Made by a program: the position numbers and the translations under genes | The notes under the pieces: model-generated | Seen by the model: the letters and a program-made list of their open reading frames with translations, nothing else | Database searches by the model: none | What the model was told of the DNA's origin: nothing | From: Pseudobdellovibrionaceae bacterium | GTDB taxonomy: Bacteria; Bdellovibrionota; Bdellovibrionia; Bdellovibrionales; Bdellovibrionaceae | Assembly: GCA_021731025.1 (NCBI GenBank) | Contig: JAKFYD010000067.1 | Coordinates: 1 to 34,896, forward strand | Reading direction: 5' to 3' | Length of the DNA: 34,896 nt | Part shown: positions 17,915-24,439 of the stretch, piece by piece | Layout: each line of letters begins with the position of its first letter | How positions within the stretch are numbered: position 1 is the stretch's first letter

Positions 17915-18310
17915 ATGATGACTTTTGTTGCCGTCTTACACATTCTTGTTGCGTTGCTTTTGATTGGCTTGGTTTTGGTTCAAGATTCAAAAGGGGGCGG
18001 AGCACTTGGAATGGGCGGAGGAGGCTCGAACAGTGTGGTTGGTGCCGCTGGCGCGCAAACTCTGTGGGCCAAAATAACTCGATATGTAGCTCTCGTTTTT
18101 GCTATTACCTGCGTCAGCTTAACTTACATGACGGCATCAAAAACAAAATCCATCATGGATTCAGCTCCTGTTCCTGCTGCAACAACAGGTTCGGCAGCTG
18201 GTGGAGCCGCTGCAACGACTCCGGCAACAACTGAACCAGGACCAGTAGTGCCTGCGGGAAAAGCGGCGCTTCCTGTGGATACGCCAAAAGCTGATGATCC
18301 TAAAAAATAA
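17915..18310 (+). CDS. secG: Sec translocase subunit SecG
   Basis: An inner-membrane subunit of SecYEG. Two membrane segments (FVAVLHILVALLLIGLVLV and ITRYVALVFAITCVSLTYM) flank the conserved SKGGGALGMGGG loop. The protein has 131 residues because of an Ala/Thr/Pro-rich C-terminal tail of about 55 residues, longer than in E. coli. The start at 17915 is set by AAGGAG 8 bases upstream; the frame open further left is tmk antisense. It is transcribed away from tmk and its end is overlapped 17 bases by the next gene. Confidence 0.93.
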   Translation: MMTFVAVLHILVALLLIGLVLVQDSKGGGALGMGGGGSNSVVGAAGAQTLWAKITRYVALVFAITCVSLTYMTASKTKSIMDSAPVPAATTGSAAGGAAATTPATTEPGPVVPAGKAALPVDTPKADDPKK

Positions 18311-19091
18311 TTCTTGGCCCAAGCTCCTTTTAGCTGCTGGCTTAATTTTCATTCTTATTTCGTTTTTCTTACTGAAAAGATGGAACGAATCTATTTCAAC
18401 AGGAAATGTCCTGGCCCGCACCGAAGATATTCAAGGGCCTGTTTTCCTCACTAAAAAATTCAGCTCGCAAAAAATAAAAATTTCCGCAAACACTTCACTA
18501 TCATCACTAGACACAATTGAAACATCCTCCGATGGCCAAGTTCTTTTGGAGTTCCCAAACACTTATCGAGTTCGTATGCTCGGTGGCAGTGTGGCCACTT
18601 TGGAAGAAAACGGCGAACAAACTTTGCTGATTTTAAAGCAAGGCGATGTTCAGGTCGAAAACTTTGGTCGCGAAGGCAGTCTGTTGATTTCCAAAGGCGG
18701 CCGGCGCATTTCCGCCACCGAATTCGAGCTCGAGAAACAAGGAAAATCATCTGCCGGCGCTTCACTGCCAATACCCTCTTCTCCAGGCGGAACTATGGCT
18801 AACACCGGGATGCTTTCGCAAGATGAAGTGCAAGGAACTTTGCAAAAACACAAGCCGATGTTTTTCAAATGTTACACTCAACTCCTGCAAAAAACTCCGG
18901 GCATCACGGGTCAAATCACTTTATCTTTCGTCATCGAAAAAAACGGAAAAATTTCCCAACCCGAAATTCCCACCTCAAGCATCAGCGACGCCAAGTTTCG
19001 CTCTTGCCTTCTTGAAGCTTTAAGTCGAGTGGAGTTCCGTGCGTTTTCGGGAGATCCTGTTTCGACACTGTATCCACTAAGGTTTGAGTAA
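18294..19091 (+). CDS. Membrane-anchored FecR/AgmX-type protein
   Basis: A 265-residue protein with one N-terminal membrane helix (KLLLAAGLIFILISFFLL). Residues from about 40 to 150 read like a FecR domain (ISANTSLSSLDTIETSSDGQVLLEF, then LILKQGDVQVENFG). After a Ser/Gly/Pro-rich linker, residues about 175-265 match the AgmX/PglI C-terminal domain (TonB-C-like): QGTLQKHKPMFFKCYTQLLQKTPGITGQITLSFVIEKNGKI. Such domains sit in the periplasm and link inner-membrane and envelope machinery in predatory and gliding deltaproteobacterial lineages. It overlaps secG by 17 bases, so it is probably expressed with it. The partner and role are unknown. Confidence 0.7.
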   Translation: MILKNNSWPKLLLAAGLIFILISFFLLKRWNESISTGNVLARTEDIQGPVFLTKKFSSQKIKISANTSLSSLDTIETSSDGQVLLEFPNTYRVRMLGGSVATLEENGEQTLLILKQGDVQVENFGREGSLLISKGGRRISATEFELEKQGKSSAGASLPIPSSPGGTMANTGMLSQDEVQGTLQKHKPMFFKCYTQLLQKTPGITGQITLSFVIEKNGKISQPEIPTSSISDAKFRSCLLEALSRVEFRAFSGDPVSTLYPLRFE

Positions 19092-19231: not shown

Positions 19232-21799
19232 ATGAAATCCTTTTCGAAAATCTTAGGCTTTGTTTTATCTTTTCAATTAGCTTTCTCGCCCTTAGCGCAA
19301 GCTCAGGTCGCCTCCGACGGTTCAGAAATTGGAGAACACAACCCCGGTCCAGATCCATCGACTCCAGAGGGGCGCGAATTGATCGACATCTACGCTGAAC
19401 TTCCTGAGTATATGGAAATGTCTGATGCATTAATGGAATCCCAAAAGTTTCGCTATATTTTTGGAATGATGATGAGTCGAACTTACTTTGAAAAAAACGC
19501 GGTTAAAGTTCTCTTTATCGGCCAAGATGCCACTCACATTGCTGAAGCCGCGAAACAACCTGGAACTTCGGGCTTTGGAGCTCGCGTACAAAGCATCGGA
19601 AACTACTTTGGTGTTGATCAAAGCGTAGCGACAACCAACGCTTTTCTATCCACTATCAAAGGACAATATGGAGCTTTTGACCACGTCATGGCTGAAGAGA
19701 ATAAGAAAGTACTTCGCCCCAAGGATGAAAAAATTATTCTTGAAATTGGCCAAGACGGAAAAGCGCAAGTTCGTCAATCGGCATTTGTTGACAGTGAACT
19801 CTGGGCAATTGCCAATGGTCGTGACAGCGAAATCCTTATAAAACGCGAAGCCTTCTGGGAGTGGATGATTAAAAATAATCCTGAGGCTTTAAGTTTAGTC
19901 ATTCTCTTTGGCGGAGCTGCCCGTGACGCTTGGGCTGAATTTCTTATTGGTCGTGGAGCTAAAGTGGGAACAAAGCTGGATCCTGAGCGATTGAAGAATA
20001 TTCAAGTGCCAGAAACCAAAATGGTTTATGCTGGGGGGAATAATGAATTCCCAGTTCCTGTAAATAAAGATGGTAAAGACATTTATGAAATCTTAGTTGG
20101 CCGCAAACTCGATTACTCAAAACCCAATGAACAAAAGTTAGCCGTTGATACATTAAAAAAAGCCGGTCAGAAAGCTATTGATATGATGGTATTCACTGGT
20201 GGTGGAATTTATGGCAGCGGTATTTTAAATGCGGCTCAATTAGGTGGCTACGACCTAAACAATGTTGAGATTAATGGTAAAAAAACAAATTCCATAAAGG
20301 GACTCAGACTTTCTGATGGCACTTACGTTAAACATGATATTGGTTTTACAACCTCGACTCATCCAAGCGCATTAAGCAAACTGACTCCTCAAATGGCTTC
20401 GATAGAATTAAAAAAGTCTTTTGCTCGATTAAACGATCTTAAAAAGCAAGGTTGGAAAGTAGAACCTGATCTCGATAGCAATGGTCGTCCTCGTCGAAAT
20501 GCTTGGCATGAAGGTGAAGATTATAAATATGGACGTGCTGATATTCGCGCAGGCTATTTTGAATTCGGTGCTCCAGATGATCGCCGGGTATCCCGTGCTG
20601 ATGCCAGTCGCTTAGATGCACAAACGATCGTCGCAGGGTCTCGCGACCGAGTTAAATTTGATAGCAAACTCATAGAAGCTGCAAAAGCAGCGATGCCTTC
20701 GACACCTAAAAATCCTGATGACCTTTGGTCCGTGCGCCAGCGACAAAAAGAAACTCGCTATATTTTTGACCGTGGCCCCGGCCGCGAGATCGCAAAATTA
20801 ATCATGTCGAACTTAGATCGAGAAAAAATCTTTGAGCCTAAGCCCGGAATGAAAGTTATGAGCGGCAGCAACGACGTCACTTTCGAAACTCATGGTATCG
20901 ATGCCTACTACACGAAAACTCATCCAGGCACTGGCTTCTTCGGAATTCACCGCGGGAGCTTTGAAAAATCTCGTGCGCTTATCTTGGCAGATCCTCATGG
21001 ACTTGATGATTGGAATACAGCTCGTGCAATGACGGGAGCTCGTGGTCAGTATTTGAATGGACTTATGAACGACATCGGATTTGGTGAAGATTATCTTGTC
21101 CTGAAAACTGTTCCGGTGGGAATGGATGGAGCAACGGCCGAAGAATGGGAAGTTGTTCGCGAAAGAACAGAATCTTACCGTGAAGTGGCCATCAAAGAGG
21201 CCTTAAAAAGAAGCCCTGTGGAAATGATTTTTACTGATGGTGAAATTGCCAAAGCTGAAATGACACGGATTTTAGCAAAGCTAAAAATTAAAAATATTTC
21301 CGTTGTGAATATTCAACGCAAAGGAATGGATCCTGCTTCAGGAATTAAAGAAGCTGGTCTTGCTTTGAAAGAAAATTTTAAACAGTTAAAAAATTCGACG
21401 ATCAGTGGAAAAATGTTAGATATCCCCCGCTCTCACTTAACTTGGTGGAGTCGTTTGTGGGAAGGCACCAGTGGTGATCGTGTGATTGATGCTACTGGAA
21501 AACACCGTGGTGGAGTTCGCGCTCTTGTGGCGCCGACGTGGGTTGTTCGCCAAAAGGTAAAGCCTTTACCTGCAGTAACGAAATCAATTGAGAAATTAAA
21601 AGAGCTCTTTGAAAGAATGAAAATTCGTTTTGACAGCGAACCCATCGATAAATTTATTGAGCGCAAACAGGTCAATTGGAAGTACTCTGCGAATAAAATT
21701 ACACCTCAATCTGCGACGATTATTGATCTTGTAGAGCATGCGAAAGCAGCTCCAAAGCTTGCACCGACTGGTTCCTGCCCCGCCGTCTTTGTAAAATAA
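19232..21799 (+). CDS. Exported protein with two uracil-DNA-glycosylase-like folds
   Basis: An 855-residue protein with a signal peptide (VLSFQLAFSPLAQAQ; cleavage near AQA). Fold 1 (about 60-400) shows the UDG superfamily order: VKVLFIGQDA at about 90, GTSGFGARVQSIGNYFGV, TTNAFLS at about 133, LVILFGGAARDAW at about 222 and THPSALS at about 375, which fits motif B (HPS). Fold 2 (about 555-745) repeats it: ALILADPHGLDDWNTARAMTG, ARGQYLNGLMNDIGF, KTVPVG, VEMIFTDGEIAKAEM and SHLTWW near 734. The 4Fe-4S cysteines of family 4/5 are absent and motif A differs (GQDATHIAEAA; ADPHG instead of GExPG), so activity on uracil is unproved. Shine-Dalgarno GAGG precedes the ATG. Superfamily assignment is motif-based. 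Confidence 0.7.
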   Translation: MKSFSKILGFVLSFQLAFSPLAQAQVASDGSEIGEHNPGPDPSTPEGRELIDIYAELPEYMEMSDALMESQKFRYIFGMMMSRTYFEKNAVKVLFIGQDATHIAEAAKQPGTSGFGARVQSIGNYFGVDQSVATTNAFLSTIKGQYGAFDHVMAEENKKVLRPKDEKIILEIGQDGKAQVRQSAFVDSELWAIANGRDSEILIKREAFWEWMIKNNPEALSLVILFGGAARDAWAEFLIGRGAKVGTKLDPERLKNIQVPETKMVYAGGNNEFPVPVNKDGKDIYEILVGRKLDYSKPNEQKLAVDTLKKAGQKAIDMMVFTGGGIYGSGILNAAQLGGYDLNNVEINGKKTNSIKGLRLSDGTYVKHDIGFTTSTHPSALSKLTPQMASIELKKSFARLNDLKKQGWKVEPDLDSNGRPRRNAWHEGEDYKYGRADIRAGYFEFGAPDDRRVSRADASRLDAQTIVAGSRDRVKFDSKLIEAAKAAMPSTPKNPDDLWSVRQRQKETRYIFDRGPGREIAKLIMSNLDREKIFEPKPGMKVMSGSNDVTFETHGIDAYYTKTHPGTGFFGIHRGSFEKSRALILADPHGLDDWNTARAMTGARGQYLNGLMNDIGFGEDYLVLKTVPVGMDGATAEEWEVVRERTESYREVAIKEALKRSPVEMIFTDGEIAKAEMTRILAKLKIKNISVVNIQRKGMDPASGIKEAGLALKENFKQLKNSTISGKMLDIPRSHLTWWSRLWEGTSGDRVIDATGKHRGGVRALVAPTWVVRQKVKPLPAVTKSIEKLKELFERMKIRFDSEPIDKFIERKQVNWKYSANKITPQSATIIDLVEHAKAAPKLAPTGSCPAVFVK

Positions 21800-21840
21800 A
21801 CAGGGCGGCATCCCCTATCATGAAGATATTGTTAGGATTT

Positions 21841-21871
21841 CGTCAAAGCCGCGCCAAAAGCGGCTTTGACG
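21841..21871. repeat. Perfect 12-bp hairpin between the UDG-like and nuclease genes
   Basis: CGTCAAAGCCGC (21841-21852) and GCGGCTTTGACG (21860-21871) are exact reverse complements around a 7-base loop GCCAAAA. The G+C-rich stem is long enough to be an RNA hairpin, but no T-run follows on either strand, so it is not a classic terminator. It may be a transcript-processing or attenuating structure, or a DNA-level repeat. Confidence 0.6.
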
Positions 21872-21911
21872 GCGCGCAATAACGCCCTTCTTGGTGGACA
21901 TTCTTAAATTC

Positions 21912-22832
21912 ATGAAATTGAATGGCGATATGAAATACAAAAAACTCATATTAATATTCATTTTATTTCCAATGTCAGCCTTCAGCTTTGGACCGATTGC
22001 TCATCGATCCGTTGGCTTAATTGCTCAAGCTAATCTGACACCGAAAGCTCAAGCTGTTGTTCGCCAGCTTTTAGGACAAGAGAGTTTAGCTGATGTTTCG
22101 AACTGGGCTGACCAAGTTCGCGGAGACGGTAAAGTCTATCAGCAAGCCAATTGGTACCACTTTGAAAAAATGAATGATGGCATCAACTACATTAACAACT
22201 TAAAAGCGATGCCCCAAGAACAAAGACTCAAAGGCGGAGTGGTCACTGCGGTCTTAGCAGCTTTCGATGCCATTCGCGCCCAAAACACACCTCCTCAAGA
22301 ACGGAAAGACGCTCTTAAATTTTTGGTTCACTTTGTCGGTGATATTCATCAGCCTCTTCACACAGGAAGAAATGAAGACATGGGTGGAAACAAAATCGAA
22401 GTGAATTGGTATGGCTACCCATCGAATTTACACGCGGTTTGGGACTCGGGCCTTATCATCGTTGGCCATAAAGATATTTTAAACCCCGCTGCTCCTGTCG
22501 AAAATCAAAGCGTAATTTACGCTCAATATTTAGTCGGAAAATTTGCTAAAGCCCCCGTTGATTTCAGCATGAATGTCGAACTGTGGTTGAATGAATCAAT
22601 TTCAATAAGGCCCGCGGCCTACAATCCAACTTATGCAACGAACCAACCTCTGTATTTATCCCAACAACTTCCTGTCGTTGATTTTCGAGTCTACCAAGCA
22701 GGAATTCGTTTAGCTGCGGCCTTGAACCAGATATTTGGTCAAGCCCCTATGCAAACGGTTGAAAAAGACATGTGGCAAAGAGTAACCTCGGTGCTTGGTG
22801 ATTTCCGCAAGTACATTTTCTTTAGACCATGA
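21912..22832 (+). CDS. Exported S1/P1 nuclease
   Basis: A zinc nuclease that degrades single-stranded DNA/RNA and removes 3'-phosphates. After a signal peptide (LILIFILFPMSAFS) come the family metal-binding blocks in order: FGPIAHRSVGLIA, DVSNWADQVRG, WYHFEKMNDG, HFVGDIHQPLHTGR, DMGGNKIEVNWYG, NLHAVWDSGL. The mature end is expected near Phe where the family has an N-terminal Trp that ligates zinc, an unusual change. I chose 21912 as start; the ATG at 21930 and the TTG at 21891 are also possible, none with an ideal Shine-Dalgarno. The end overlaps the next gene by 4 bases (ATGA). The exported location suits degradation of prey or environmental nucleic acids. Confidence 0.9.
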   Translation: MKLNGDMKYKKLILIFILFPMSAFSFGPIAHRSVGLIAQANLTPKAQAVVRQLLGQESLADVSNWADQVRGDGKVYQQANWYHFEKMNDGINYINNLKAMPQEQRLKGGVVTAVLAAFDAIRAQNTPPQERKDALKFLVHFVGDIHQPLHTGRNEDMGGNKIEVNWYGYPSNLHAVWDSGLIIVGHKDILNPAAPVENQSVIYAQYLVGKFAKAPVDFSMNVELWLNESISIRPAAYNPTYATNQPLYLSQQLPVVDFRVYQAGIRLAAALNQIFGQAPMQTVEKDMWQRVTSVLGDFRKYIFFRP

Positions 22833-23500
22833 GAAAAACTTTTGCTCTCGGCCTTATCCTAGCAAATCTGTTTAGCTTTGCCTGTCAAACATCGGCCTTT
22901 AAAAATACTTCTCTCTATCCTGAACATTGGTGGTCCCCTGTTTCTCGCGAAGATGCGCCCGATTGGGAAATACTTCCCCAGGACGCTGCTCGGGGCGAAG
23001 TTATTCTGTCGAAGAGAAATGAATTGGGGATATTATCCAACTTTGCGGCAACTCCATTCGAGTTTCATGGAAAGACCTACGCTAGCGTTGAAGGCTTTTG
23101 GCAAATGATGAAGTACCCTGAAGGCCCCGATGATTTACGCCGAAAGAATCCAAAAATACTTTGGCCTTACACGCGAGAACAAGTTGCGCAGATGACAGCT
23201 TTCGAGGCGAAAAAAGCGGGAAGCTTAGCGAACGCCAATATGAAGATTCTAAAAATCAATTGGGTCACCTTTGAAGGAAAAAAATTAATTTACCGTGAGC
23301 CAAAAAAGGGCGAGTTCTACCAGCTGATTTACGAAGCCGAGTGGAGCAAACTCAAACAAAATCCCCAGGTGCGTGAAATTCTTTTAAAAACCGGTGACTT
23401 AAAACTTCGTCCTGATCATAAGGTTGAGGCCGAGGCCGCTCCGGCCTGGCGCTATTATGAGATATGGATGGAAATCCGCGCCCAACTGCAATCTCCCTAA
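22829..23500 (+). CDS. Exported NADAR-type (YbiA-like) N-glycosidase
   Basis: A 223-residue protein. After a hydrophobic N-terminal segment ending in SFACQTSA (signal peptide; the cysteine could be a non-standard lipobox) comes a NADAR/YbiA domain at about 60-215: LSKRNELGILSNFAATPFEF, GKTYASVEGFWQMMKYP, REQVAQMTAFEAKKAG, YEAEWSKLKQNPQVREILLKTG, APAWRYYEIWMEIR. NADAR enzymes cleave N-glycosidic bonds in riboflavin intermediates or remove ADP-ribose from guanine in DNA/RNA; they are normally cytoplasmic, so an exported copy is odd. It overlaps the S1/P1 nuclease gene by 4 bases and is surely co-translated. The usual DxxWG near the C-terminus is replaced, so the exact substrate is open. Confidence 0.75.
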   Translation: MRKTFALGLILANLFSFACQTSAFKNTSLYPEHWWSPVSREDAPDWEILPQDAARGEVILSKRNELGILSNFAATPFEFHGKTYASVEGFWQMMKYPEGPDDLRRKNPKILWPYTREQVAQMTAFEAKKAGSLANANMKILKINWVTFEGKKLIYREPKKGEFYQLIYEAEWSKLKQNPQVREILLKTGDLKLRPDHKVEAEAAPAWRYYEIWMEIRAQLQSP

Positions 23501-23965: not shown

Positions 23966-24439
23966 TTAGAATTCAATATTTGCCGGTGATCGGCTTTGAA
24001 ATTTAAACTTATGCGCCACCTGAACATCTTCTTGTAAGGGTGGCGGCGAAAAAGCTGCTGATTTCACTTGATGAAAAACGCAGTTTTCCAAGTTTTCGTT
24101 CTTTAAGTCGGAGCCGAGCAATTTAAGATCGGTTACATTTCCATCTTTATTGATAATCCAACTGACCCGAATAGCTCCTCGAGTTTTTTCGGGTTCGGTT
24201 TTCAAAAAACTCTCATAACACTCTTCAATAGCCTGATTTTTTTCTGCTAGAATCGATCGCACAATTTCATTGCGATAGTTTTCGACTAATAATTTGGGAT
24301 CATTCTTTTTTACGAACTTGGTCTTCACCGGTTCGATCTTTGGTTTTCCTAATTTAATAGTAACGATATATGCGGCACTTGCAACATTGCCCATAAATAA
24401 AAATACAATCAGAGCTCGAACTGAAAATACGTCCCTCAT
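23966..24439 (-). CDS. Exported AgmX/TonB-C-like protein
   Basis: A 157-residue protein with a signal or anchor segment (VRALIVFLFMGNVASA) and one AgmX/PglI C-terminal domain: IEECYESFLKTEPEKTRGAIRVSWIINKDGNVTDLKLLGSDLKNENLENCVFHQVKSAAF. It is a short relative of the C-terminal half of the gene at 18294, without the FecR part. The pattern 'C...L...p...G.v.v.w.I...G.v......s.l.n..l..C' is kept. AGGAG-like GGGAG lies 6 bases before the ATG. Two operator-like palindromes lie upstream. Function in the periplasm is not known. Confidence 0.7.
   Translation of the reverse strand: MRDVFSVRALIVFLFMGNVASAAYIVTIKLGKPKIEPVKTKFVKKNDPKLLVENYRNEIVRSILAEKNQAIEECYESFLKTEPEKTRGAIRVSWIINKDGNVTDLKLLGSDLKNENLENCVFHQVKSAAFSPPPLQEDVQVAHKFKFQSRSPANIEF

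Follow-up and report, generated by a model that had tools for sequence, protein, structure and literature searches.

Our analysis concerns a 34,896-nucleotide stretch of a Pseudobdellovibrionaceae bacterium (GCA_021731025.1, contig JAKFYD010000067.1, positions 1 to 34,896), hereafter the window, in which three plus-strand open reading frames (ORFs), here called genes A, B and C, follow one another, each with a hydrophobic, export-type start as judged by eye (Table 1). A is predicted to be an exported protein with two domains of the uracil-DNA glycosylase (UDG) fold, B an exported S1/P1-type nuclease and C an exported protein of the NADAR fold. A first-pass annotation had described three neighbouring genes with export signals on this strand, the last two overlapping by four bases, and both points are borne out by the ORFs and by the ATGA shared between B and C. 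Its family assignments also held: that of B by Pfam, that of A as UDG-like by fold and profile searches, to which a second UDG domain is now added, and that of C as a NADAR by its structural model.

Table 1. Predicted genes and features of the A-B-C locus (window positions), with members of one neighbouring family from other genomes (locus:positions).
Feature	Coordinates	Strand	Basis
Gene A, putative exported tandem UDG-superfamily protein, 855 residues	19232..21799	+	ORF, predicted model, family alignments
Putative signal sequence of A, residues 1-25, cleavage after AQA	19232..19306	+	by eye
A domain 1, residues 44-412, predicted UDG fold	19361..20467	+	VIA-align to 4zby; profile match to BdiUNG
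A domain 1 motif A, G97-Q98-D99-x-T-H-I-A-E	19520..19546	+	G97, Q98, D99 invariant 35/35
A domain 1 Asn136, at position of UDG base-reading Asn	19637..19639	+	invariant 35/35
A domain 1 motif B, His377-Pro378	20360..20365	+	invariant 35/35
A domain 2, residues 505-773, predicted BdiUNG-like fold	20744..21550	+	VIA-align to 5gn2; motif table
Perfect 11-base-pair inverted repeat, 7-base loop, no T-run, between A and B	21842..21870	+	sequence
Gene B, putative exported S1/P1-type nuclease	21912 or 21930 to 22832	+	Pfam PF02265; PDB matches
Gene C, putative exported NADAR-fold protein, 223 residues	22829..23500	+	ORF; model; NADAR-only PDB matches
ATGA overlap, B stop / C start	22829..22832	+	sequence
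C putative NADAR catalytic Glu88 and Lys95 (E-x6-K)	23090..23113	+	invariant 20/20 family members
Lipoprotein-like family members	L194:8090-8980, L195:10948-11838, L196:6819-7688, L189:7894-8742, L146:7634-8545		

As a single sequence A gave no match to the Pfam UDG model, which matched 17 of the 35 A relatives (best E 2.3e-8). An AlphaFold2 model built with 35 sequences from the window and from metagenome-assembled genome contigs (predicted local distance difference test, pLDDT, 89.0; predicted template-modelling score, pTM, 0.87) had BdiUNG (5gn2, E 4.7e-9) as its top PDB match in Foldseek, followed by family-4 UDGs, UdgX and SMUG1. With VIA-align, residues 505-773 superposed on BdiUNG 5gn2 (Z 21.4, 237 residues aligned, 2.8 Å) and residues 44-407 on the family-4 UDG 4zby (Z 13.2, 188 aligned, 3.6 Å), and by sequence profile it was domain 1, not domain 2, that matched BdiUNG 5gn2 (E 2.9e-9; E 3.7e-22 with the profile of a second A subfamily, subfamily 2). 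These models place A in the UDG superfamily as a protein predicted to carry two UDG-fold domains. The GQD of motif A, N136 and H377-P378 of domain 1 are kept throughout the 35 relatives, a wider alignment (A1) has glutamate at position 99 in 6/18 sequences, and the motif reads GQE in the second subfamily, whose members have about 690-890 residues. The asparagine at the position of N136 is the base-reading residue of UdgX, according to the excerpted text of PMC10359453. In domain 2, D587 is kept. Comparison of the two domains with hhalign returned a probability of 91% (E 9e-7) with alignment A1 and 11% with alignment A5, which is no more than suggestive of a tandem duplication. A separate canonical UDG is encoded on contig C50 of the window genome, so A is not the only UDG of this bacterium.

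The model of C (pLDDT 87.9, pTM 0.80) matched NADAR/YbiA folds only when compared with the PDB by Foldseek, and of 157 chains aligned to it only YbiA 2b3w (Z 10.2), 8bau (Z 10.0) and 8bat (Z 10.0), all of the NADAR fold, reached Z 2. At an E-value threshold of 0.001 the Phage_30_3 model matched all 20 members of the C family and the NADAR model 10 of the 20. E88 and K95 are invariant in all 20 members and stand seven residues apart, as do E43/K50 and E88/K95 of characterized NADARs, whose glutamate and lysine are described as essential residues in PMC11543638. D196-H197 of C, also invariant, lie near the third NADAR catalytic position (Glu, Asp or His depending on the subfamily, in the last strand), with an exact equivalence that is ambiguous in the YbiA alignment; in phage gp30.3 this third residue is a histidine, and the NADARs tested, gp30.3 among them, hydrolyse guanosine-ADP-ribose in vitro, as stated in the excerpt of PMC11125620. 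By its predicted fold and its catalytic glutamate and lysine, C would thus be a member of the NADAR superfamily, with an N-terminal part of its own (YP.HWW...WEI.PQ).

Across 368 Bdellovibrionota genomes A was found in 79 and C in 111, with C present in 71 of the 79 A genomes (odds ratio 55) and, counted by genus, in 46 of the 50 genera with A vs 13 of the 131 genera without it. The two genes lie less than 2.5 kb apart (gaps of 0.15-2.4 kb, within a 10-kb search) in 10 of the 71 genomes that hold both, vs 0.49 expected under Poisson assumptions that take placements as random and independent (G098 and G099 share a genus). These counts support the functional link that the first-pass annotation implied for the UDG-like protein and the NADAR, and the A-C association is above chance. 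Their arrangement varies: A-B-C on one strand in the window, A-EEP-C on one strand in L135 (=G086), where EEP denotes an EEP-family nuclease, C-EEP opposite to A in L179, L180 and L181, and C-A-EEP in L163, with A and C as direct neighbours on the same strand in G116 and G079 and divergent in G243. When named genomes were scanned with alignment A3, 41 A loci were returned, mostly from Bdellovibrionota groups, the rest including Deltaproteobacteria, Proteobacteria and Pseudomonadota; C was near A in 5 of the 41, of which L163 seems to lie beyond the 368 genomes and the other four appear to be among them. Among 59 near relatives, the window genome included, A occurred in 18 genomes, and C and B in 20 each. 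The listed genomes of genus g7, which belongs to the same family, gave no A, although several of them carry C. The ORF caller missed A or B in some loci (e.g., L093, L177, L183 and L203), where neighbour counts are lower bounds.

Gene B has three in-frame starts (TTG 21891, ATG 21912 and ATG 21930) and encodes about 300 residues. It matched Pfam S1-P1_nuclease (PF02265) with E 6.5e-53 and 180.6 bits vs a cut-off of 29.5, and S1/P1 nucleases in the PDB with E-values from 6.4e-26. Its H, WAD, WYH, HFVGDIHQPLH and NLHAVWD motifs hold the histidine and aspartate metal ligands of S1/P1 enzymes, and judged from its sequence B is probably an ordinary S1/P1-type nuclease. The association of B with A is weak. 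S1/P1 genes adjoin A in 3 of the 43 genomes that hold both (the window, G002 and G014), with 0.08 expected under the same assumptions. The first-pass reading of the three genes as one cluster is thus upheld for A and C, whose adjacency recurs in Bdellovibrionota, and fails for the exact trio, which is spread over three different contigs in the same-genus genome G001. Five loci have A and C accompanied by a putatively exported EEP-family nuclease, unrelated to S1/P1; in four of these (L135, L179, L180 and L181) it lies between them, in the position that S1/P1 occupies in the window, and in L163 it is on the far side of A. Its identity was confirmed by Pfam in L135, L163, L174, L179, L180 and L181. 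With an EEP-family nuclease adjoining A and C elsewhere, it would seem that the two can exchange one nuclease partner for another. A fixed place for S1/P1 in the module was rejected on account of its weak co-occurrence with A and its rare adjacency to it. Contig C18 of the window genome carries another S1/P1 gene, in a block (L126) whose neighbour families F32, F10, F33, F34 and F35 are found again next to A in G003 and G031 (L082, L087).

A putatively exported, deaminase-like amidohydrolase was present in 40 of the 357 genomes searched, 34 of the 40 also having A (the association test used 368 as the total), and the search found none in the window genome. In 18 genomes no more than 2.1 kb separates it from A, in another the distance is 6.9 kb, and four genomes have it less than 0.7 kb from C. 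Around the 70 distinct A loci, EEP occurred at 7 and the amidohydrolase at 15 (within five genes of A in L082, L087, L088, L090, L092, L146, L189, L190, L193, L194, L195, L196, L198, L199 and L205), vs 1 and 0 at 62 loci without A; both models were seeded from A neighbours, which makes this enrichment partly one of choice and affects the phylum-wide amidohydrolase count less. The protein matches Pfam PF01979 where tested, has HxH and HLAEG motifs, and is tied to A as a neighbour more strongly than C is; its nearest solved structures include atrazine chlorohydrolase, S-adenosylhomocysteine (SAH)/methylthioadenosine (MTA) deaminase and guanine deaminase. In several genomes a lipoprotein-like family of about 290 residues, with no clear Pfam match, lies between A and the amidohydrolase.

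All three products of the locus are probably exported. The N-terminus of A (MKSFSKILGFVLSFQLAFSPLAQAQ) reads by eye as a Sec-type signal, B from ATG 21930 begins with a signal (MKYKKLILIFILFPMSAFSFG) by the same judgement, and C has a hydrophobic N-terminus ending in AC. The second of two rule-based tests was passed by 47/70 A, 17/17 B, 32/46 C, 8/8 EEP and 12/15 amidohydrolase proteins, and by 571/1607 other ORFs; both rules are crude, discriminate poorly and missed signals seen by eye, that of the window's own A included.

We tentatively suggest, as a serious possibility, that A and C, together with a nuclease and often an amidohydrolase, make up an exported module that would act, outside the cytoplasm, on N-glycosidic bonds in foreign nucleic acid, whether from prey or from the environment. 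The recurrence of this neighbourhood in differing arrangements, with its catalytic residues conserved, fits a single function in opening such bonds in foreign nucleic acid or in its components. Domain 1 of A would be a working glycosylase of the UDG type, taking out uracil or other bases that are deaminated or modified and so producing abasic sites, while domain 2 could be a copy, degenerate in part, with a role in DNA binding or in reading a different base. Its partner nuclease (S1/P1 in the window, EEP elsewhere) might then cut at or near abasic or single-stranded places, C might release ADP-ribose from guanine, or a similar group held by an N-glycosidic bond, or else split a related nucleotide, and in other genomes the amidohydrolase may deaminate the released bases or nucleosides. 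In its most ambitious form, which we think rather unlikely, the proposal would be an extracellular base-excision system in which an exported double-domain UDG-like enzyme, an exchangeable nuclease, a NADAR and a deaminase introduce abasic sites into foreign DNA and dismantle it; if true, base-excision chemistry would here serve digestion or attack, not repair.

Several observations weigh against the proposed module. C scored below the curated cut-offs of every model it resembles (NADAR 23.7 vs 35.1, Phage_30_3 25.4 vs 36 and TIGR02464 31.2 vs 73.7 bits), and the glycine-rich WGxG loop of YbiA was not seen in it. Domain 2 of A has threonine or proline at the asparagine position. C occurs without A in 40 genomes, most genomes with both have them on different contigs, and in G003, G163, G031 and G087 the two share a contig and lie 0.1 to 2.9 Mb apart; the exact A-B-C trio occurs only in the window. 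S1/P1 genes, found in 157 of the 368 genomes, share 43 of the 79 A genomes (odds ratio 1.8, p 0.02), and all co-occurrence statistics are by genome or genus, without tree correction. A three-gene operon is not supported, as the A-B gap of about 110-130 bases contains a perfect hairpin, a single copy in the genome by pattern search, and only B and C overlap. The stretch with the hairpin folds better than 199 of 200 shuffles; no plus-strand terminator with a T-run was called between the two genes. This hairpin may end or process the A transcript, and since it separates them A and B may not share a transcript.

The same enzymes could instead scavenge free nucleotides, nucleosides and bases, with the nuclease yielding nucleotides, the NADAR and UDG-like proteins splitting base from sugar and the amidohydrolase deaminating the products. 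The amidohydrolase, adjacent to A in 18 genomes and its strongest neighbour, does resemble small-molecule deaminases, yet domain 1 of A retains the full UDG motif set and UDG-superfamily enzymes act on DNA. Some NADAR/YbiA enzymes are able to split small riboflavin intermediates (PMC11543638, in excerpt), which suits such a role, but Bdellovibrio is reported to incorporate prey nucleotide monomers directly (work summarized in PMC7925074, in excerpt), so that splitting them would be wasteful, and overall we consider scavenging unlikely, if worth keeping in mind. A counter-defence role, an idea already raised in the first-pass annotation, in which C frees the guanine of foreign DNA or RNA from ADP-ribose and A takes out further bases that block digestion, opening the way for nucleases, draws on the guanosine-ADP-ribose activity of the tested NADARs, on the match of Phage_30_3 to the whole C family and on the retained E88 and K95. 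It is nonetheless improbable: the neighbour genes that were read showed no ADP-ribosyltransferase, in a reading that was not a systematic search, by eye C does not obviously retain the residues of the ADP-ribose-contacting loop, and the only DarT found in the window genome is on another contig than C. This DarT-family gene (L235; 149.8 bits) stands at the end of contig C58 of the window genome (G000:C58, 19223-19789), distant from C to the extent that the assembly can tell, and no antitoxin partner for it can be seen there.

Against the proposed module could also be set plain chance, such genomes having many exported hydrolases of which three unrelated ones may come to lie together; the confinement of the trio to the window, the widespread S1/P1 genes with their weak tie to A and the number of neighbouring ORFs that pass the crude signal rule speak for it. 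Such an origin is already strained for A and C, whose linkage in 10 of 71 genomes far exceeds expectation, and the excess of A-S1/P1 pairs, the EEP nuclease in the place of S1/P1 and the linkage of the amidohydrolase to A also speak against it, so we regard it as highly unlikely for the set, though it may hold for B alone. Equally hard to credit is that A and C have no catalytic activity and serve as surface or matrix proteins that hold extracellular DNA or ligands resembling ADP-ribose. The lost asparagine of domain 2 would agree with this, as would a lipobox-like motif in 11/46 C and 8/70 A members (crude scan), as in surface-anchored proteins, whereas the domain 1 motifs and the NADAR glutamate and lysine are invariant, as expected of enzymes. 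Two further candidates were rejected: for phage or plasmid cargo, tblastn gave no match for C in plasmids or phages, for A in phages or for subfamily-2 A in plasmids, and for a defence system no PADLOC model rose above trivial scores.

UDG-type enzymes are known for intracellular repair, and NADARs as cytoplasmic glycosidases or antitoxins (PMC11543638 and PMC11125620). A tandem UDG family, predicted to be exported and accompanied through a predator phylum by a likewise exported NADAR, would point to cleavage of base-sugar bonds outside the cell; it would raise, for two large families, a question of substrate that can be tested, and may supply a missing step in nucleic-acid breakdown by predators or scavengers. 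BdiUNG (Blr0248, PDB 5gn2), which represents a broad-specificity UDG class from Bradyrhizobium (PMC8307549, in excerpt), is the best profile and fold match of A and shares its GQD motif, but is a 272-residue chain with one UDG domain, whereas A combines two such domains with an export signal. Family-4 UDGs and UdgX resemble domain 1 in fold (Z 13.2 and about 11), asparagine and HP motif; their motif A is GE(A/G)PG or GEQPG (excerpt of PMC10359453), while A has GQD and is predicted to be exported and tandem. C is like the NADARs, YbiA and phage gp30.3 in fold (Z of about 10 to 2b3w, 8bau and 8bat) and in its glutamate and lysine, and differs from them in its export signal, its scores below the Pfam and TIGR cut-offs, its N-terminal part and the unseen glycine-rich loop. 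With the DarT1-NADAR toxin-antitoxin systems it shares membership of the NADAR fold, but it carries a signal sequence and is not beside DarT. The secreted nucleases of Bdellovibrio (Bd0934, Bd3507 and others) provide a comparable context of exported nucleases in predators, although the excerpted account mentions nucleases only, with no glycosylase or NADAR partner (PMC7925074). A search of titles and abstract openings in the open-licence literature returned no exported UDG, no exported NADAR among the matches listed and no NADAR in Bdellovibrio, nor anything relevant on uracil-DNA glycosylase in Bdellovibrio.

On either side of the locus, the proteins encoded at 18294-19091 and 23966-24439 have a similar C-terminal stretch ('SFVIEKNGKI / SWIINKDGNV ... 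C') and possibly belong to one family.

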